Positions 15,457-43,593 of a stretch of DNA of 64,000 nucleotides are shown here, piece by piece. Source of the stretch: Fragilaria crotonensis (lineage: Eukaryota; Bacillariophyta; Fragilariophyceae; Fragilariales; Fragilariaceae); assembly GCA_022925895.1 (NCBI GenBank), contig JAKSYS010000881.1, positions 806,001-870,000 on the forward strand, given 5' to 3'. The translations under genes were made by a program, and so were the position numbers. A model generated the notes under the pieces. The model had not been told where the DNA came from, searched no databases, and worked only from the letters and a program-made list of their open reading frames with translations. Positions within the stretch are counted from its first letter, which is position 1. Each line of letters starts with the position of its first letter.

Positions 15457-18409
15457 TGGCTGGTTTCATTCTCGACCATCCTCGCGTACAGCTCGGTATG
15501 TTTTATGCTACGCATACAAAATCCCAGAGTAAAATTCCGCCGAATAATTCTGCAATCCATATCTTTCTTGTTACACATTCACACTCTCACAATCGTAGTA
15601 AGTCACCTTCGACCCTTGCATTCCTCAACTCGGAATGAACGAAGCCGCTGTCAAAATCAAGAACGCACCGATGACTCCTGAAGTCTTTCTTCACCCTTTC
15701 GATGTCGGAGTATGATAAAAGTTCCTGTTTGATGTGAGTTGTTGGAATTGGGGCAACACGAATCCTGGCGGTGGCAGAAGAATTTGGATCCTCATTTACC
15801 GCGGCAGCAGCTACTTGCTGCTGCAGTTGTTCAAGATGATGGTACGTGCATATATATGCTCGCGCTCGTGATGCAAACTTCTCAATCCTCTCTTTTGTTA
15901 GAACCTTTATGGGCCACGTGCAATCTTTGACAAGCTGTTTAAAGTTGTCACGACCTCGTTTCCTTGACAATGGCATACGTCGATAGAATGCTTTGGAATG
16001 TGCCCAGCTGTACTCAACGCCCTCACCAGCCAACTCCGCGTGAAACTTTGGCGTTAGATTAACCACAACTCCAAGCTGAGAACCTAGAAACTGAAGAGCG
16101 GTTTCCTCTTCTTTGAAATCATAACATTCGGCAAGAAGGTGTCGAAGTGAGTAACGTAAGTCCACAATGCCGGTGATTGCGTCTTTTCTTCCTTCAAGAG
16201 TGTATTGTTCTAATGATGCTCTGTCGATCAGTCCTCGCTCCCCCAGAACTTGCAGGAGGCCTTTAGGCTTTCCCTCCCATCCCGGAGCAATCTGTTCCTT
16301 TACATCGACTACGTCAATGCCATTGTTCCTTGCAAAATCTTGAAGCTCTTTTTTTGTATACCCTCGTTGCTGTTGAAGCGTCACTCCCTTATCTTTTAGA
16401 GCCTCAAGGAGCACCTTCTTGGACCTTTCAACAACTTTGGTTTTGCCTGTCGGTCGGTCATGGCGTTGAATTCTCTGCTGATGGTCCGATAAATACCATG
16501 GACCGACATCATCAACTTGAAACACCAAGGATTGAGTGTCCGCAACGCGTAGTGAAGGTAAGTGTGGACCGAGAAACCCGTCTTCTTTCGGCACCTCCTC
16601 GAATACGATTCCAGTAGTCAATGTGGAATTCGATTCGTTGTTCATTACCGACGATGTCAAAATAGCTGTGTCCGAATCCGATATCCAAATCTGTAATAGT
16701 CATAGCTTCACTAAGAGAAACTTGTATCCATCGATTACAATAGGGTTCTAACTCAGTCAGGTAGTTCTTGCAGAACTGTGTACGATTCGCCACAACGTCG
16801 TCCCGTTCGTGACCATCGACGTAGAAACTCTTTCGTCGCGTGTCGTACCGAAAGCCAAGTAGACGCATCCAGCGCCATGCCGTTGAGAAGCTCATCTTTT
16901 CAAGTCTATGAGCATGAAGGAACAAGCTATTAAGAACTTCTTGGTTGTTGTGGTCGTTATCGGCAGGTTGCGGTGTGTCACTCATGGTAGTACTACTAGT
17001 TGTACTAGTATCCGCGGCCGTTGCCGCAGCAACCTCCTCATCCTTCTGCCACTCCGATGCAAGTCTCGGTATAACGGTAGAAACAATGAAGTCGTGTAAA
17101 CCTTCTATTGTTAGGGTCGCTAAGTTTTTGACTCCGAAAGCAACAATCTGGTCTTTTGCATCGGGGAATATCTCCAGCAGCCTTGGCAGGGGTCGCTTCC
17201 CACATTGGATTTATGGGTTCGGGTGGGGAAAACATTCGAGCTTCCTGAAGATGATGTTCCATTGCGCAATGGTCTTAAAAAAGTAGCCTGATGCATCCCG
17301 AGACTATTCAACGTTTGACAAGCTACTTTGCAGCAGTGATGCCACGTCCATTCATTCATGTTGGTGAGTGCAAGTTGGTAAGCCAAACAGAGAAAAATCG
17401 CCCTTTGTCGAATTTCAAAGACTTCTGCCTTTGTACAGATATTGTCGGGGTCTCCACCTTTCACAATAGCACGCCAGCTATCTTTGCTCTCGTGAACGGC
17501 CTGAAGCTGAATGATGCGGCGCTCCAAGGCCTCCTGGGGACTTTCAAGATTCGTCGTATCAGTATTGTCGACAATGGCACCTCCATTGTACTCTCTCGGT
17601 CTGAAGAGCTGATAAGCTTCTGGACTTTCTGGCCAATACAAACATGATGGTGATTGAGCAACATTATCAACCCTTTGGCGCTTAAGAGGGGAAGCATTCT
17701 CGTTTTCATTGGTGCCAGGATGCCCAACTCTTGTTGTTGGCAGTACTGGAGCATTTTCGACAGTACTCGGTCTCCCTCTTGTTGATGGAATTACAAGAAC
17801 ATTTGCAGCATGTTGGAGGACTCTTTCCTTCCATGTGCCATTTAAAGGGCGCGGTAAGCCACCTGTCTTGTTTCATCAGTGAAATAGTAGAAGTATTGGT
17901 GTTGGTAATTGATACGAACACGCCGGTCGCGTTTGATCCTTCAAACCTTGTCATGAGTTCTCCAAATAAACTCGACTTTGACATGGCGGTATTAAATTTT
18001 CGCACGTCAATGATGAGAGAGCCATCAATGTGACCAGACTTTCTTATTGCTTCAACCCAAGTTGCAGCAGGAAGCCAACAATTGGACATTCGAGGCCCAT
18101 ACGTGTCATCGGCACGAAGCAACATGACAGCCCTGAACAAAACGGTGTGGATGCCTTTGTCAGACATCAGTGCAATCAACCTCACTTAGTCAGTTGGCTT
18201 GCCAAGTGTATTGAGAAGGCTCCTGTCAGGGCTGGGTTGATTGCAAAGAGTGTAGGTGTCGCGAACGACGGCGTGCAATATCATTGTAGAACCCTTGCTT
18301 CCAGCACGACAACATACTCTAAACGTGACGTCACCGACGCAGCAAATCTTCTCTTCTGTACAATCAATACTGCAGCCTGCGCCAGGTTTCTTTGACGTGA
18401 AACCAGCCA
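15457..18409 (-). mobile_element. DDE transposon copy B, TA-flanked, deleted and decayed
   Basis: This is a second copy of the DNA transposon found intact at 22569-26221, in opposite orientation. Both ends carry the 12-bp inverted repeat TGGCTGGTTTCA, directly flanked by TA (15455-15456 and 18410-18411), as expected for a Tc1/mariner-like insertion. Its coding remains on the minus strand occur in the same order as in copy A but in several frames: N-terminal parts at about 18185-17120, the VDGHERDDVV block at 16985-16620, and the C-terminal block with SAP-like helix, GWEGKPKGLLQVL and AELAGEGVEYSW at 16660-15587. The sequence jumps near 16620 from FHID to a segment that in A lies about 190 residues further on. 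Both catalytic Asp residues are therefore gone. It cannot encode an active transposase. Confidence 0.88.
15587..16660 (-). pseudogene. Transposase C-terminal remnant of copy B
   Basis: An open stretch of 357 codons corresponds to the last third of the copy A transposase. It keeps TQSLVFQVDD, one SAP-like helix pair (VLLEALKDKGVTL...KKELQDFARNNG), the block WEGKPKGLLQVLGERGLID, and the third acidic motif in AELAGEGVEYSWAHSKAFYRR. It ends with FRSHRCVLDFDSGF, matching FKTHRCVFDFDYKF in copy A. The ATG at its start is internal to the family protein, so this is a remnant and not a gene. The length of the open frame suggests that B is not very old, or that its C-terminal part has been spared by chance. 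Confidence 0.85.
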
Positions 18410-21879: not shown

Positions 21880-22400
21880 AGTGTGGATTCCACACTCCAC
21901 ACTCCACACTCCACACTCCACACTCCACACCAGAGTCCTGCACTGGGTACCCATACCCAGTACCCACCCACTACCCACCCATACCCATGGTTAATGGGTG
22001 GGTATGGGCATGCCCAACCCACTGGTTGGGCAATGGGTGGTCCCAACTTGACTCGCAAAGCGTGGGTGGGTAATGGGTGGTCCAAGCCTGCCAACGCGAA
22101 TCGACCATTGTACTCCAAGTATACTGTAGCTAGTAAGGAGTAGTAGAGTATAGTACGCGGTGAGAGCAACTTTAAGAAAATCGCCTGCGGCGGGCTAAAT
22201 TTTTGCAGGGAAAATGGGTAGTGGGTGGGTATGGGTACGCCCTACCGGGCGTGGGTGGGTAACGGTGGTCCAGCCGTGACCGCGCGAAGCGTGGGTGGGT
22301 CATGGGTGGTCCAACCCTGCCTACCGGCAGCCTTGGGTACCCATGGGCACAGGCTTCATACCCGGTGCAGGACTCTGCTCCACACTCCACACTCAAGACT
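21880..22400. repeat. G/C-tract fold-back repeat with CCACACT arrays
   Basis: The 7-bp unit CCACACT is repeated about six times at 21890-21930 and twice more near 22380. The word CAGAGTCCTGCAC is present at the left and as its complement at the right (about 22365), so the outer parts are inverted. Between them two direct copies of a GCGTGGGTGGGTAATGGGT-type segment lie at about 22058 and 22288. Four C-triplet tracts at 21950-21986 and four G-triplet tracts at 22216-22235 fit quadruplex-forming motifs on opposite strands. No coding sequence is evident. It may be a small non-autonomous element. Confidence 0.75.
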
Positions 22401-22568
22401 CACGGACTGTAGTGCAAATAGTAGTACAGTACAATTTCGGTACAATAGTACTGTGCAGTACTTCAGTACGTGTACTATACTGCACCTGGCACCTTGTACT
22501 GTACTGAGTATGCATAGAGCACTATCATAGTACCGGTCTAGCCGGTACAAGTACAAGTCTATGCACTA
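22401..22568. other. Short GTAC-rich spacer before transposon A
   Basis: The 170 bases before the left end of transposon A are rich in AGTAC/GTACT words (22415-22560). No gene is seen. The TA at 22567-22568 is the left flank of the transposon. Confidence 0.5.
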
Positions 22569-22614
22569 TGGCTGGGTAGAAATAAATGGAACCTTGGGTA
22601 GCCTTCGTAGAGCT
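22569..22614 (+). repeat. Left terminal inverted repeat of transposon A
   Basis: It begins TGGCTGGGTAGAAATAAA and continues through GGGTAGCC. It pairs with the complement of 26176-26221 with roughly ten mismatches over 46 positions. The preceding dinucleotide is TA. Confidence 0.85.
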
Positions 22615-22748
22615 AGTATGCTATTTTTTTAGTTTCACACTCCCTCCGATGTCTCCATCGCGTCGATCGTCATGCTTCATTGTTGTTGACCTGCACCATC
22701 GATTATCTCTTGATCGAAACACTCTCCCGCGTGGCCTAAGGTCTCAAA

Positions 22749-25700
22749 ATGACAACCTTCAACACGATGAGTGACAACCGTTCCTACCCACGCGGGAAAC
22801 ACACTCCAGAGGTTTTTATCCTGTCTTGTCTTCACACTGTTTTCAAAGAACCATTGATTCATGATCGATGGTTACCAGCGGAACAACTTCGTACCTACAT
22901 GCATATGAAATGCAACATTGCAGATGAGATACAGTTCAATCAAGCAGCTATGATGCGGGTCATCAACAAGAAGATGTTACCTTTAGTTGGCACGGAGCCC
23001 AACATCATTGAAGGCGCTACTGGTGGAGTCGATCTGAAAGTTTTTCGGCATTCGTTTCAGGTAAAGAAGCGATGCTACTTTTTCTGGATCACGACGAAGG
23101 TTGAAGCCATACCACCCTTGATGCCTTCAACGCGCAACGCTGTAAAATGGGAAGAAGACTGTGTTTTGAAAAGGTTAATTGCAGGTGGCCGATCGCATGC
23201 GTTGGAAATAGACGTGACCATTGAGCCCGAGCCTAAACGAATGAAAGTCGTGTCGTCAGAAACAACAACGACCGCAACAACAATCAACAACAATCACCAT
23301 GCTTCCTTGAACACAGAGGAAGAGCAATCACATAGAGCGAATGCTACAATTTCTTCTTGGTGGGAATCTGGTGATGCTCGCAAACTCTTTGCGCCGTGCA
23401 CTGTCAAATATGACTCCAGTGAATGTGTGAAAGGGATTGTGATAGAGCGGATTGAGCTGCTAGAATCTGTCAACAGAAATGGCAAGAACTGGACAAAGGT
23501 TGTCGAACTTGGGACATGGAATGTGGACACGTGTCCCTACTCTGAATCCGATGTCTTTGCGTTGCGACTCAAAAGTATGTATCTGGTGTCGGCATTGCGA
23601 CAATTCGTTCTAAATATGACTGACGATTTGACGACACAGTGGACTTGGAAGAGCTGTCTTCTTTTTGCGATCAAAGCCATGAATGATGTCGGTACAGAAT
23701 ACTATTCCAATTACAGGACGTTGGCGAGATGGCACAGGAAGTTGGCCAAGCACCGACTCTTTTTTTGCAAAACGCCCGAGGCAAAGACAACAATCCCCCC
23801 ATTCTTTCGCGACAACCCTGACGCCATGGCTGCATTCAAGAGATATGGAGTTGCTAACATCCAGGATCTACGGGTTGAACTGATGTACAACTATGTGCAT
23901 CAGGATCTTATTCCAAAGCTCTTGCAAAAGGCGCAGCAAAATGGCTTGTTCAATGATGACGGTGACGAATGCAATGCTCCTGTTGTCGGAGTACTAGCCA
24001 TCACCACTGCTGACAACAACATTGAGGACGTAGGGGTAACGTCTATTAGTACTCCAAAGGACTTGTTTCTTCAAACATATGGACTTCACAAGTTAGGTAT
24101 CACAACGATTGCAAAGTGGATGCATGCCGTTGGGTTTCGCTACAAGAAGCGCGAAAAACACTACTTTGTTGACGGCCACGAAAGATTGGAGACGCTTGCG
24201 TACCGACCAGTATTTACAAAAAAGTACTTGGATAATGAAATACGAGCTCACCGATGGATCCAAATGACATTAGAAGAATCAAAAGAGCTGGAGTCAATAG
24301 GACACGTCCCGATCAATTGCGGTTACAACTACGTTGACAATGGGACCCAAAACATGGTCGAATATCATATCGACACAACTCATACATTCGAGGGCCGACT
24401 ATCTAAGCTTCGATTTGGAGGAAACTTGAGTGTTAGAAAGCCAATTGATTCGAAAACTGTTATCTACGTTGGTCAAGACGAAGCTATCTTTAAACAATTC
24501 CTGTTTTTAAGTAAGATGTGGGTCGGTCCGAGTGGTCAACGTCCTCTGCTCCCAAAAGACGAAGGAGCTGGTACGATGGTTTCGGCATTTGTCTCTCGCG
24601 AGTATGGGATCATTCGAGAGATCAGTGACATGATACTTGACGAAGTAAATGAACAACGACATGGCAAGAAATATGCAGATGAAGAGGCTGCAATCGAGAT
24701 TCTGGGAAGCCCTGACAAGAAGCCGCTCACAAAAGACAAGTCTCCGTTCCTTCACTTCTTTGAGTATGGAGAGAACCGCGAAGGCTATTGGAACTACAGC
24801 AACATGGTCATCCAGTTCGAGGACGCAGTTGATGTTCTTCAAGTAATGCATCCTACTTTCGATTTCGTCTTTCTGTTTGACCACAGTTCCGGCCACGCAA
24901 AACAACGACCCGACGGCCTCAATCATCACAGGATGAACCGCACCTTTGGTGGCAAGGCCAATCGGATGCGGGATACAATCATTGAAAGTGAAGAAGGATA
25001 CCTTGGTAAATTTCCTCGAATCTTGGAGCCCGGCAACACTCAGTCTCTTGTCTTCACTGAATCAGACCCTGGTCCCTTCTGGTTGTCCGACGCCAAAAGA
25101 GAAGAATGCCGTCACGACCAACGATATGGATGTTTCAACGATGTCAAGCTTTCAATTGCTGACATGAAAGAGCAACTAGCAAACAAAGGCATCCTTGAGG
25201 AGGATATCGCTTCAAAAAATACAAGGCAGCTCAGAAACCTTTGTTCGCAACATGAGATTCCAACCTTTAGACGTGTTGAGAACGTGGTTGAGCGGAATCG
25301 AACTGAACTGGAGCTTGAACTTAGAGGCAGGGGATTGTCTATTAAGGGGAAAAACAAAAGGGAGCTGGTTGAGATATGCAACAATAACAACATCGCAATC
25401 ACGAAGACAATTGAAAAAATCAAGGAAGGATGGGAGGGGAAAGCAAAGGGGTTATTACAGGTTCTATGGGAAAGGGGATTGATCGATGGAGCCAATTTCA
25501 AACAGTATTCACTTACCGGGAAGAAGGATGAATTTGGGATTGTTGACAATGGCACAAACCTGACGCATCTCATGGGTTTGTGCCACGACTTCCTCAATGA
25601 AGAGGGAATGTTGCAGCACATCGCAAAACGTATTGGCGTTGAAGTCCTATTGACACCGAAGTGTCACGCTGAGCTTGCGGGAGAGGGCGTGGAGTATGTA

Positions 25701-26009
25701 TGGGGTGGTGCAAAGGGTGAATACCGACGATTGAGCCTTGCACAGAAGCGAGGTAAAGACAACTTCAAGACCAGTATGCATTATTGCCTGTCTGAAGAGG
25801 TGATACCGATTGAGAGAGTTAGAAAATATGCGCGTCGAGCAAGACAATATTTGATGGCGTATCACGCAGTCGACACAGGGCAAGTTGATCCTCAAACTCA
25901 TCATGATTGTTTGAAGTTCGGTCCAGTGGCGGTTGACAAGCTGATCAACAACTTCAAAACGCACCGTTGTGTGTTCGACTTCGACTACAAATTCATCATG
26001 GAGGCATGA
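22749..26009 (+). CDS. DDE transposase with SAP-like insertion (1086 aa)
   Basis: A single-exon transposase. Around residues 455-490 lies WMHAVGFRYKKREKHYFVDG followed by HER, a hallmark I recall from fungal and algal DDE transposases related to IS630/Tc1. The proposed catalytic triad is Asp in YVGQDEAIF (about residue 577), Asp in FLFDHSSGHAKQ (about 706) and Glu in AELAGEGVEYVWGGAK (about 980). Between the second and third positions sit two helical repeats, residues about 798-835 (MKEQLANKGI...RQLRNLC) and 851-882 (LELELRGRGLSIKGKNKREL), that resemble SAP DNA-binding motifs. A conserved WEGKAKGLLQVLWERGLIDG block follows. The N-terminal 450 residues are not recognised and presumably bind the transposon ends. 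The protein ends FIMEA. Placement in the superfamily is an inference from the motifs and TA target. Confidence 0.85.
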   Translation: MTTFNTMSDNRSYPRGKHTPEVFILSCLHTVFKEPLIHDRWLPAEQLRTYMHMKCNIADEIQFNQAAMMRVINKKMLPLVGTEPNIIEGATGGVDLKVFRHSFQVKKRCYFFWITTKVEAIPPLMPSTRNAVKWEEDCVLKRLIAGGRSHALEIDVTIEPEPKRMKVVSSETTTTATTINNNHHASLNTEEEQSHRANATISSWWESGDARKLFAPCTVKYDSSECVKGIVIERIELLESVNRNGKNWTKVVELGTWNVDTCPYSESDVFALRLKSMYLVSALRQFVLNMTDDLTTQWTWKSCLLFAIKAMNDVGTEYYSNYRTLARWHRKLAKHRLFFCKTPEAKTTIPPFFRDNPDAMAAFKRYGVANIQDLRVELMYNYVHQDLIPKLLQKAQQNGLFNDDGDECNAPVVGVLAITTADNNIEDVGVTSISTPKDLFLQTYGLHKLGITTIAKWMHAVGFRYKKREKHYFVDGHERLETLAYRPVFTKKYLDNEIRAHRWIQMTLEESKELESIGHVPINCGYNYVDNGTQNMVEYHIDTTHTFEGRLSKLRFGGNLSVRKPIDSKTVIYVGQDEAIFKQFLFLSKMWVGPSGQRPLLPKDEGAGTMVSAFVSREYGIIREISDMILDEVNEQRHGKKYADEEAAIEILGSPDKKPLTKDKSPFLHFFEYGENREGYWNYSNMVIQFEDAVDVLQVMHPTFDFVFLFDHSSGHAKQRPDGLNHHRMNRTFGGKANRMRDTIIESEEGYLGKFPRILEPGNTQSLVFTESDPGPFWLSDAKREECRHDQRYGCFNDVKLSIADMKEQLANKGILEEDIASKNTRQLRNLCSQHEIPTFRRVENVVERNRTELELELRGRGLSIKGKNKRELVEICNNNNIAITKTIEKIKEGWEGKAKGLLQVLWERGLIDGANFKQYSLTGKKDEFGIVDNGTNLTHLMGLCHDFLNEEGMLQHIAKRIGVEVLLTPKCHAELAGEGVEYVWGGAKGEYRRLSLAQKRGKDNFKTSMHYCLSEEVIPIERVRKYARRARQYLMAYHAVDTGQVDPQTHHDCLKFGPVAVDKLINNFKTHRCVFDFDYKFIMEA

Positions 26010-26175
26010 AGTGATGAGTGACGATGTGCTTCGTTTTTGGCAAGAATGTGATGTTTCTCTCGTCTGCGAATTCTCCAGAGCATGCTATCAAAGTATACAA
26101 TATTGTAGCTTTTTTATACAGAAATCTTTCTGGTGCTCATCATAGACGAATTGAGAACTAAATATATTTTATACG

Positions 26176-26221
26176 AGAGCCACGATGGCTACCCAAAGTA
26201 CTTTTTATTTCCATCCAGCCA
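26176..26221 (-). repeat. Right terminal inverted repeat of transposon A
   Basis: Read on the minus strand it begins TGGCTGGATGGAAATAAA. It matches the left end imperfectly. The TA that follows (26222-26223) also borders the next element, so the two insertions share one dinucleotide. Confidence 0.85.
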
Positions 26222-26223
26222 TA

Positions 26224-27675
26224 GAGAGAGAGACCATTCGGCCTCTGAAGCAGTGGCCCGATTTTTGGTTATGAGCACTATTTTGTCACTAATTTTAACG
26301 ACTTCTGTGTTATGCGTCATACATCATACATCATACATCATACATCATACATCATACATCATACATCATACATCATACATCATACATCATACATCATACA
26401 TCATACATCATCTACCAGACATAACATTTAAAAAATTCGTTTAAGTGTATGCATAAATTGAAGGACTTGGTGTGAGCGTTTTTTCATCGGCGCGCATTTT
26501 CTACGCTCGAGCTCTCGAGCTAAAATCAGTTCCTGCTCTCGATTCTCAGATGAATCAATGCAGAAGTAGTACGGTGCCAGACGACAATGATAACAAATTC
26601 ATGACGCCGCTTCGTTGTTAAAGTAAACAGGACGGCATTGAAGTCACTCTAGTAGGCTTGCAAAAGTAATACACAGCTACAGGATGTATTGAAACTTTAT
26701 GCAATTTATCCACTTCAGCCTACCGTAGTATTAGAAAGATGACCCTCCATGATTATTCCGAGTTCACAGCAGTTAGGTTGGCACTGCCTTTACCAGCCCT
26801 TCTTGATATGATTGATGCTGGAGAAATACGTCATTTGCTGCAACCATGCTCCTCTTCTTATTTATCTTGTTGTAGTTCTGCTTTGGTGTCGCTTGCTGGC
26901 TGGTGTGATGATGGTGTCACTTGCTGGCTGGTGTGATAATGGCGCCGCATGGTGTTGGCAATTTGTGTCGACAGTCGACAGTCAACACCCATCAACTGAA
27001 AGCCAGGAGAGAGGAGCGAATGAAGTGAGAGACGATCGGAGGAGGACATCATTCAAGACAACAGAATAATAAATGGTTGAGCACATCAAGTCGTACCGCG
27101 TTTGCATTTGTGAAGCGCTATCGAACAATGAAATTTGATCCGAAGGAGTATTCATCCACTCTCTCCTTCGGTTTTGCTGCTGACCTCAGCACCTTTTCCG
27201 GCTCCTTGATGGGTGGAAGTTGTTCTTCCTTCTCAACTGGATGCCGATGAGCATTCATGCACAGATTGTTCATTGTCAACAGTGCTTGAAAGTGTGTCTT
27301 CCTCCAAAATGCATGAAATTCTCGGCGATCCAGAATTTCGCTCGCGTAGAGCTTACGTGGGAATCAGCAGATTTTTAAGGTGCATCCACGTGGAATGTCG
27401 ATTTCAGGCCGCAAATTGACTTCACCAAAAAGCCGAAGTTTGCAGCGTCCGTGCATATCCTGATGCAACACCACCCAAGGAGCATCAATATGCACGATCT
27501 CATCGAAGTTGGAATTGGTGGAGAAATCGCACATTTCATGAGCTCATAAACCGTTATCTACTCTGTCGTAAAGAATCAATTCTTCAGACATTCAAATTTT
27601 AGAGTCGTAACGGTGGTATAACGAGAGGCCGGCGGGATCGGGCCCCTGCTTCAGAGGCCGAATGGTCTCTCTCTC
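26224..27675. mobile_element. Non-autonomous TIR element, TA-flanked, abutting transposon A
   Basis: A 1.45-kb segment bounded by inverted repeats of about 37 bp. Both ends start GAGAGAGAGACCATTCGG and continue with CCTCTGAAGCA, with about one mismatch up to GGCCCGAT. TA lies directly outside each end (26222-26223 and 27676-27677). No long reading frame is present. The minus strand around 27350-27560 translates smoothly for short runs but with stops, possibly remains of a gene. A CATACAT array lies near the left end. The element belongs to a different family from transposon A, judging by its ends, but shares the TA target preference. Confidence 0.78.
26318..26408 (+). repeat. (CATACAT)13 heptanucleotide array
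   Basis: Thirteen perfect tandem copies of CATACAT. Perfect identity between copies points to recent expansion by slippage. It lies inside the TIR element that starts at 26224. Confidence 0.97.
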
Positions 27676-27697
27676 TAGTGCATACTAGAGAGAGACC
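27664..27697. repeat. Palindrome made by two facing GAGAGAGAGACC ends
   Basis: The right end of the preceding TIR element (GGTCTCTCTCTC, then TAGTGCATACTA) is followed directly by GAGAGAGACCATT on the top strand. This gives a near-perfect inverted repeat around GCAT. The second half looks like the start of another copy of the same family, of which only the first dozen or so bases are recognisable. Confidence 0.75.
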
Positions 27698-27739
27698 ATT
27701 ACTGGTTACTGGGGTACTTGTACTGGTACTACATCAGAG

Positions 27740-28500
27740 TATTAGATGAACTCATCCAGAATGGTTTGACATCTGTCTTGGTGAACAATCATCAATTGCT
27801 GAGTTTGACCAGGTTCAAGGATATGAGAGGTACAGGAGCCAGGGAATCCAGACTCCCTTTCCATTGCAGCAGTCGGGTGCATAGCTGGGCATTTGCGTCC
27901 AAATGAATTCATTCTTGATGATGAGACCACAAGGGTGCTATGTTTGCATGCCCTGAACAATGGTTGAGCGAATAAAAACACAAATGATAATGGTCCAGAT
28001 GCATAACCTTTAGCCAGCGGACTATATTGTGAAACTGAAGGCCAATGGTAGTATGGTGGTCCTTTTCCCAGAAGCCTCTTCTGTTTTCCCAAAAGTCAAA
28101 GCAGGGAAGAATGGGGACTTGCCTTCTGAAAACCTTGGCTTCTTGATACGAGAGCCATACACCTCCATAGCCAATTCCTGTCTGCATATTTGGCTCGTCC
28201 TTGCTTGTTGTATCTCATGAGCGGAATCTACGGCGTGTTGATCTAGCTATTTGTAACTTCTGGATTAAACTATCATCTCTGCCAATAGAGGAGGATATCA
28301 TTACATCTGGCTGCTATTTCATCATCATTTCGTAGGAGAGGATGATACTCTCCATTGGGACCTGTCTGTCCATATTTTTGAGCAAAACAAGAATTGCTTA
28401 TTGATTGCTTCATCTTGCATCATGAACATGCATTAGAAAGGCGGTCCTTGGTTACCATGGACATATCAGCAAGGGTGTGAATGCCAGCAGCACAGTGTGG
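27740..28500 (-). pseudogene. DDE transposase fragment, copy C
   Basis: A minus-strand remnant of the transposon A family in several frames. It retains QDEAINKQFLFCSKIW (about 28430-28385, matching QDEAIFKQFLFLSKMW in copy A), ENRRGFW and KVMHLDHYHLCF, CSGHA (matching SSGHA of the second acidic motif), then a stretch ending ILEPGQTQQL (about 27800). Neither the N-terminal third nor the C-terminal part with the third acidic residue is found next to it. The two flanking spacers give no matching inverted repeat. It is more diverged than copy B and probably older. Confidence 0.75.
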
Positions 28501-42241: not shown

Positions 42242-43593
42242 CCTGGTGGAATTGGTGTACCTGCACCGACAGCGTCAAGATGCAAACAGATCAGATCACC
42301 TTGGTTGATTAGGATGGCAGATAATGCTCAAGAGCTTCACCACAGGATGGGCGAGTCAGACGATTAGGGCTTTACTTTCGTTTTCTTGTCGTCGCTCTGA
42401 TGCTCCATGCACTCGCTTGTGCATCTGCGCACGGCTCATCAATGGGGCGATGAGAGGCAAAAGGGGCCAATGCTGCGCTTTTAATTGGTCGCCTCAAAAT
42501 GCCTGGACATTATTTGTACTCAGTACGATACTACAGTACTCAAGTCTGGTACTATTTTTACGAGAACAGTGATGGTACTACTGTACAGTATACATTCGGA
42601 TTGTGTGCCGGCGACCAGCGACCGTTGCGGGGTCCCACCCAGTACAGTGCTCGAGTACTGACGTACGAGGTACTTGGTACTTGTAGTCCCTAACGTGTGT
42701 TTCTCCGTTTCTCCGAATATATGTGCATATTTGGACATGAATATGAGACGCCAATTATCTTTGGTTGTGTACCACTACTCGTATACTCACATAGGTTGTA
42801 CGGCTGGTTGCAATAAATGAAAACTTATAGTAGCCCACGTAGACCCTAGTACAAAAGAATAGCATTAACCCTGTCGAACTAAAATTATCACGGCAAATTG
42901 CACGCTTCGTTCGTCTCACAATGGCGCTCAAAGATCTCTCAAGATCTCCGTTGTTTTTTGAGCTGCCGTATTTCCACGAGAGTTTATAGACTTGTGTTCA
43001 AGTCCATGAATGAAAACCGTTCATGGAAATACTGCAGCAATGAAATTCACAAAGTTATGGCAACATCGGTGAACATGCCGCTGCGCTCATTGTGGAAATG
43101 CTATACGAGGGTCTCATGCGCCATGCTTTCCAAAAAAATTAAGAACGAGATGTTTAGTATGGCTCAGTACGTAGAATCGTTAAATGTCAAATAAATCCAT
43201 ACGAGGGTCTACGCATCCTACGAAAATCATCATCATGATGCAACCAGCTATAGTGGTATGACGTATGACGTATGACGCATGACGCATGACGCATGACCAT
43301 TTGGATACTTGTACTCTTGTACATATTTATCCGGCGTACAATCCTCGAGTACGGAGTGCATCACAGTACCTGGTACCTGGTACACGCCAGATTACTACAG
43401 GTAGCCGAACGCGTATGACGTATGAACAATAAGATGCTGAATGCTGAAAGAATGCATCATGCTATCATGCATCATGCATCACCTAAGAACACTGATGGGA
43501 GGCCCCTACTAATTCCAACACCATATCAGACATGGTTTCCATATACATATATACATCAATCTCGCAGCCATAACTGAAGAACGCGATTATCTG
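42242..43593. other. Divergent spacer, GTAC-rich, with heptamer repeats
   Basis: 1.35 kb between two divergent genes. GTAC words crowd 42505-42690 and 43300-43395. A tandem heptamer G(T/C)ATGAC is repeated six times at 43256-43297, and a looser CATCATG-type array lies near 43450-43485. A 98-codon frame at 42898-43194 has no protein-like features I can support. The promoters of both flanking genes should lie at the two ends. Confidence 0.5.
43256..43297 (+). repeat. Heptamer array G(T/C)ATGAC x6
   Basis: Three copies of GTATGAC are followed by three copies of GCATGAC, then the array stops. The block-wise change of variant indicates expansion of two neighbouring units. Confidence 0.95.

Follow-up and report, generated by a model that had tools for sequence, protein, structure and literature searches.

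What kind of mobile element occupies nucleotides 22569 to 26221 of the window (the whole 64,000-nucleotide stretch analyzed here, positions 806,001 to 870,000 of contig JAKSYS010000881.1 of the diatom Fragilaria crotonensis), and has a DNA-binding insert been built into the catalytic core of its transposase? The window element is a real mobile element of a multicopy family that duplicates TA on insertion. Its 1086-codon frame, its TGGCTGG...CCAGCCA ends and the TA on either side, as described in a first-pass annotation of the sequence, were all borne out at the following positions, which also include the empty site used for comparison.

22569..26221, plus strand: complete autonomous-type DNA transposon of 3653 bp, recognized by its ends, TA flanks and empty site
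22749..26009, plus strand: transposase open reading frame of 1086 aa, a single frame without a stop, with relatives at 32-64% identity
22569..22634, plus strand: left terminal inverted repeat, a TGGCTGG box followed by a GGGTAGCC box; 50/66 positions match the right end
26156..26221, minus strand: right terminal inverted repeat, from comparison with the left end
22567..22568, no strand: left TA target duplication (single TA in the empty site)
26222..26223, no strand: right TA target duplication (single TA in the empty site)
27637..27684, minus strand: right end, still intact, of the nested host element, used as the empty-site reference for the insertion; it spans the junction with one TA and 47/48 identical positions

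The two terminal repeats of the element are identical at 7/7, 16/18, 29/35 and 50/66 positions, depending on the length compared. An end pattern allowing up to three mismatches matched three places in the window, namely both ends of the element (exactly) and one site with three mismatches, against a shuffle mean of 0.24; three matches were reached in 0 of 100 shuffles. The left flank terminates in TATGCAC-TA and the right flank opens with TA-GAGAGAGAGACC. As the reverse complement of nucleotides 27637-27684 spans this junction with a single TA, the window element inserted at a TA within one end of another inverted-repeat element. This host of the insertion (window 22560-27684) has ends TATGCACTAGAGAGAGAGACCATTCGGCCTCTGAAGCAG, contains a TACATCA microsatellite at 26319-26411 and is similar to DNA elsewhere in the genome. 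Among 15 flank joins tested for empty sites, three matched across the junction, those of the window copy, L046 and L031. The empty site of L046 is found in the flank of L035 (436/530 aligned positions identical, one TA) and that of L031 in the flank of L036 (397/466 identical, one TA, but a local gap to the left).

Three protein queries against the host genome (62.1 Mb, 881 contigs) returned 74, 64 and 64 matches. With starts more than 4 kb apart counted as separate, the family comprises at least about 124 loci, a rough figure that is probably low because 42 of 1073, 43 of 1135 and 46 of 1106 first-look candidates were scored. Our reading covered 25 long loci, namely the window copy, L031-L050 and L070-L073. 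Looking for more copies that share these ends had been proposed as a check, and in 22 of the 25 loci both ends indeed proved to be TA-flanked versions of this terminal repeat. TGGCTGG was exact at both ends in 20 of them, and L040 and L044 differed from it by one change, at one end or at both; one end each was found for L034 and L072, and neither for L073. The 7-base box was exact in L071 despite a protein that is 32% identical to that of the window copy. In L070 (nucleotides 278-300) the terminal box is doubled (TGGCTGGGTGGCTGGGTGCA). A genome scan with a 20-base end pattern and up to three mismatches gave 63 matches, compared with 21 for a reversed control. Long open frames of 991 to 1160 residues, stop to stop, occur across divergent branches (L031, L034, L036, L040, L041, L043, L071, L072 and L073), and P0003 has a full-length partner at 98% identity; many further family copies carry stops, frameshifts or deletions.

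Six short loci were fetched, five of which are complete, internally deleted derivatives of 629-636 bp with the same ends as the family. All five have TA on both sides and differ in their flanks, and their mutual identity of 93-99.5% suggests recent movement. The sixth short locus, L057, has one kind of end only. The ratio of nonsynonymous to synonymous substitution rates (dN/dS) was 0.21, 0.26 and 0.14 in the three pairs with unsaturated synonymous sites, which come from branches other than that of the window copy, and it was 0.26-0.29 for the SAP-like unit described below (42 codons) in two of the three. These pairs show purifying selection on the transposase.

The residues proposed to form the catalytic center, and the helix-turn-helix (HTH)-like stretch ahead of them, are placed as follows.

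24066..24152, plus strand: HTH-like stretch, residues 440-468, located through alignment with members matching HTH_33 or IS630 models
24477..24479, plus strand: D577, proposed first catalytic acid (D1; QDE, motif QDEAIF), invariant in 11/11 members and included in the signature permutation test
24879..24881, plus strand: D711, proposed second catalytic acid (D2; motif FLFDHSSGH, H716 at +5); D in 10/11 and H716 in 11/11
25692..25694, plus strand: E982, proposed third catalytic acid (motif GEGVEYVW; W985 at +3, K989 at +7); E, W and K invariant in 11/11

In the window protein, D1 and D2 are separated by 133 residues and D2 and E by 270. The three motifs had been proposed at first pass as a D-D-E-type signature, and this proposal gains support from comparison with 12 bacterial IS630-like proteins from named plasmid records, five of them annotated IS630 transposases, whose profile matches Sleeping Beauty and Mos1 in the PDB. 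The IS630-type signature taken from these proteins consists of DE at D1, H five residues after D2, P upstream of E and K seven residues after E (D....H; P...E......K). It occurs once in the conserved columns of the 11-member family alignment, exactly at D577-D711-E982. The signature triple was reached in 0 of 20000 permutations, with either the whole protein or the C-terminal part alone permuted. The force of this test is reduced, as both the signature and its permitted spacings were drawn up with the family already known, and the spacings were chosen so as to cover it. Upstream, HTH_33 matched five of nine members and four of four further proteins, all below the cut-off, and an NCBIfam IS630 model matched two of nine proteins (best E = 0.0004, L074). 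The conserved W of the HTH-like stretch lies 113-129 residues ahead of D1 in 11 members. The window protein itself gave no match to an HTH_33 or IS630 model in residues 440-468.

The stretch between D2 and E holds the units that resemble SAP domains.

24882..25691, plus strand: the 270-residue stretch between D2 and E
25143..25283, plus strand: SAP-like unit 1, residues 799-845, present in this branch only (4/9 rows of alignment A1; tree)
25284..25412, plus strand: SAP-like unit 2, residues 846-888; all 14 members compared have a unit-like stretch

Two such repeats had been reported from the window sequence, and they are real and homologous: units 1 and 2 align with scores of 36-66.5, compared with shuffle means of 0.1-4.0, and 0 of 2000 shuffles reached the observed score in each of four members. 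The two-repeat layout holds for four members, the window copy among them, but most members compared carry one unit-like stretch. D2 and E are separated by 268-272 residues in the four two-unit members and by 222-244 in eight one-unit members, a difference that mostly equals one extra unit. In a core tree of 14 members rooted at the midpoint, the four two-unit members form one branch that adjoins one-unit relatives, with a support of 88/89 that falls short of what the tool counts as strong; the second unit is therefore probably a later tandem duplication. A 122-aa model of the SAP region forms a series of short helices (mean predicted local distance difference test score [pLDDT] of 67). Among Pfam families, SAP matched the most isolated units (5/14, best E = 5.5e-5), followed by SAP_new25 (4/14). 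In a genome-wide SAP scan, 65 places were recorded at E values up to 10; C304 and C380 lie within family copies and C162 within L070, all three below the cut-off. Outside the family copies listed by the three protein queries, 38 places in the genome have SAP matches at E < 0.001 (e.g., C758, C328 and C372).

Taken together, these results lead us to favor a cut-and-paste DNA transposon with an RNase H-like center at D577-D711-E982, related to IS630-Tc1-mariner, in which the SAP-like insert would clamp DNA near the active site. We assign this reading a probability of roughly 0.6, as a number of observations weigh against it. Comparison of the family with profiles of the 12 IS630-like proteins, both whole and core-only, was not significant. 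The hhalign score of 19.1 compares with a shuffle mean of 14.3 and was reached by 7 of 100 column shuffles (the best local match sets E982 on the IS630 E), and the IS630-Tc1-mariner membership put forward at first pass gains no significant support at the profile level. Thirteen proteins (nine members of A1 and four further ones) were scanned without a match to any Pfam DDE family. L043, an intact frame of 1064 aa, has E at the position of D711 and may be either a dead copy or an example of a tolerated change. A single-sequence structure model of residues 535-1086 had a mean pLDDT of 31.8 and was not used for acid clustering. The remaining seven dN/dS pairs, including every pair with the window copy, were saturated. 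As for the insert, the SAP match of the window protein stays below the Pfam cut-off (E = 0.13 for the whole protein; E = 0.012 for isolated unit 2, with 15.7 bits versus 23.9), a Foldseek search with the 122-aa model gave 14 matches at E values up to 10 (best 2.0) of which none reached 0.001 and none was described as a SAP domain, and the unit sequence is poorly conserved between branches.

One locus with a weak DDE_3 match, L051, was rejected as a member: it lies in a long frame in which some stretches resemble integrase and reverse transcriptase, by eye a copia-type retroelement, and has no real match to P0001. Because the triad signature and the weak upstream HTH matches stand beside a nonsignificant whole-profile comparison, an IS630-Tc1-mariner-like affinity is probable and membership unproven. 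Judged from sequence, the family is probably a divergent, IS630-Tc1-mariner-like transposon family with a SAP-like insertion, and the units are best termed SAP-like.

The nonsignificant IS630 profile homology would also be expected if the triad were misassigned and the element came from IS3EU or from another TA-inserting superfamily, such as CACTA/Transib-like ESTA or PIF/Harbinger-like PHISTA. Indeed, PHISTA and ESTA likewise duplicate TA according to excerpts of PMC12730594, and TA alone is therefore no proof of the IS630-Tc1-mariner group. IS3EU is described in the same excerpts with 6-bp duplications and ends TAYGG..CCRTA (PMC12730594), which the window element would match if the TA belonged to the element. 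We nevertheless consider such an origin very unlikely. The only conserved cysteines between D711 and E982 are C945 (10/11) and C972 (8/11), and the C(2)C motif that the CACTA/Transib type (including ESTA) has between D2 and E, together with H(3-4)H, is absent, so that this type was rejected. In the 18 copies, out of 21, that have enough flank, at most three of six bases agree outside the TA; IS3EU was rejected, as none of the 18 has a 6-bp duplication and the empty sites contain TA only.

A second alternative concerns the insert, which could be a helical structural or dimer-forming spacer without DNA contact and with only a superficial likeness to SAP. The small share of isolated units matched by Pfam SAP is compatible with such a spacer, as are the failure to retrieve a SAP structure with Foldseek and the lack of a significant PDB match for the unit profile, for which 1zrj, which we take to be a SAP domain, appeared at E = 0.24. 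However, units 1 and 2 share one pattern beyond what shuffling produces, the best SAP match reaches E = 5.5e-5, and the second-ranked model is another SAP model, all of which makes a spacer quite unlikely in our view.

It is also conceivable, though unlikely, that transposon and chemistry are the same and that the SAP-like unit acts in selecting targets or chromatin (DNA of the AT-rich or matrix type) instead of in end processing. SAP domains bind AT-rich chromosomal DNA, and the unit sequence varies between branches while the neighboring blocks are conserved, both of which would fit such a role. In contrast, conserved blocks of what is presumed to be the catalytic part enclose the unit on both sides in the 11-member alignment, a position that suits a role near the active site.

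In the clamping mechanism that we prefer, the N-terminal domains, including the IS630-type HTH, would bind bipartite ends made up of the TGGCTGG box and a GGTAGCC box, and the IS630-Tc1-mariner-related RNase H-like center would carry out cutting. The D2-E insertion of about 220-270 residues carries what appears to be one SAP-like helix-loop-helix unit (two in the window copy). By analogy with the insertion domains of Hermes and RAG, as presented in excerpts of PMC6900584, this unit may clamp DNA (the end, the flank or a bent target) beside the active site. The short derivatives would be moved by the family's transposase. A bolder proposal, which we advance only tentatively, is that these TA-inserting DDE transposons (DD~220-270E) form a deep superfamily that has so far gone undescribed, with a SAP-type DNA-binding unit placed between D2 and E, inside the RNase H domain, as part of the transpososome's DNA grip, and with this unit tandemly duplicated in one branch while mobility was kept.

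The family shares with IS630/Tc1/mariner elements the TA duplication, the conserved signature positions (DE at D1, and H and K five and seven residues after D2 and E, respectively) and, judged from sub-threshold matches, an HTH-like stretch upstream. It differs in the spacing between D2 and E, which is 222-272 residues here and about 35 (about 29-43) in IS630/Tc1/mariner proteins of 300-400 aa. To our knowledge, the DDE transposases of the IS630-Tc1-mariner group lack an insertion domain. The first-pass annotation knew of no described family with this layout. Sailor (DD82E; DD78-111E), a member of the IS630-Tc1-mariner group whose hosts include stramenopiles, already has insertions between D2 and E and between both D residues according to excerpts of PMC8533490, and long spacing as such is therefore not unprecedented. 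On the evidence of these excerpts, Sailor is the nearest published IS630-Tc1-mariner variant with D2-E insertions that we found. However, it differs from the window family in spacing (78-111 versus 222-272), target duplication (mostly TATA versus TA), transposase size (up to 676 aa versus about 1000-1160) and ends (usually starting GT/CC versus TGGCTGG), and the available excerpts mention no SAP-like unit for it (PMC8533490).

The target duplication is 8 bp in hAT elements and 5 bp in Transib. Excerpts of PMC6900584 outline how, in hAT (Hermes) and RAG1 (Transib), the RNase H-like fold is broken by an insertion domain that gives the DNA in the active site its shape. The insert of the window family lies at a comparable place in the sequence, but there is no conserved C(2)C pair and the duplication is TA instead of longer. 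A search of one literature collection returned no account of a SAP domain in an IS630 or DDE transposase and no match to the family's motif strings, and the available parts of PMC7325037 and PMC5963040 contain nothing on a SAP-like layout between D2 and E. Scans of viral contigs, prokaryote contigs and phages (the last queried with P0003 only) gave no relatives beyond the host genome, nor did PDB sequence searches with P0001, A1 and A6, and PHROGs yielded just four weak unnamed families, one member each. Uncharacterized DDE-like proteins of basidiomycetes presumably carry motifs similar to those of the family (QDES, GYW, D.SS.HA, GGKQ, QSMVF, GKPKG, ERGL and PKFHCELN.IE.WG), with a shorter D2-E spacing and no SAP-like unit.

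The window contains further traces of the family. A second, degenerate member with TA-flanked TGGCTGG ends and several broken frames lies at 15457-18409 on the minus strand; its D1 and D2 region is missing, because the matches skip from residue ~545-590 to ~745, and its top-scoring matches are to the L071/L073 branch. To the right of the element, a short relic (residues ~575-800) occupies 27735-28432 on the minus strand, and an N-terminal scrap is found at 42931-43191 on the plus strand. The repeat at 22050-22390, about 340 bases long, is rich in GGGTGGGTA; elsewhere in the genome it has 21 near copies (91-99% identical over most of the length) plus shorter pieces. The window also encodes eukaryote-type genes, including Symplekin and a member of the tubulin-tyrosine ligase family.

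With no Pfam DDE model matching the proteins scanned, genome annotations may label such frames as ordinary genes, and a large transposon family is hereby flagged in a genome of 62 Mb. This one genome supplies both the one-unit and the two-unit layout, intact frames and short derivatives with the look of recent movement. If the family is indeed an IS630-Tc1-mariner relative with a DNA-binding unit between D2 and E, its one- and two-unit members would constitute a natural experiment on what an insertion domain contributes to a transposase.

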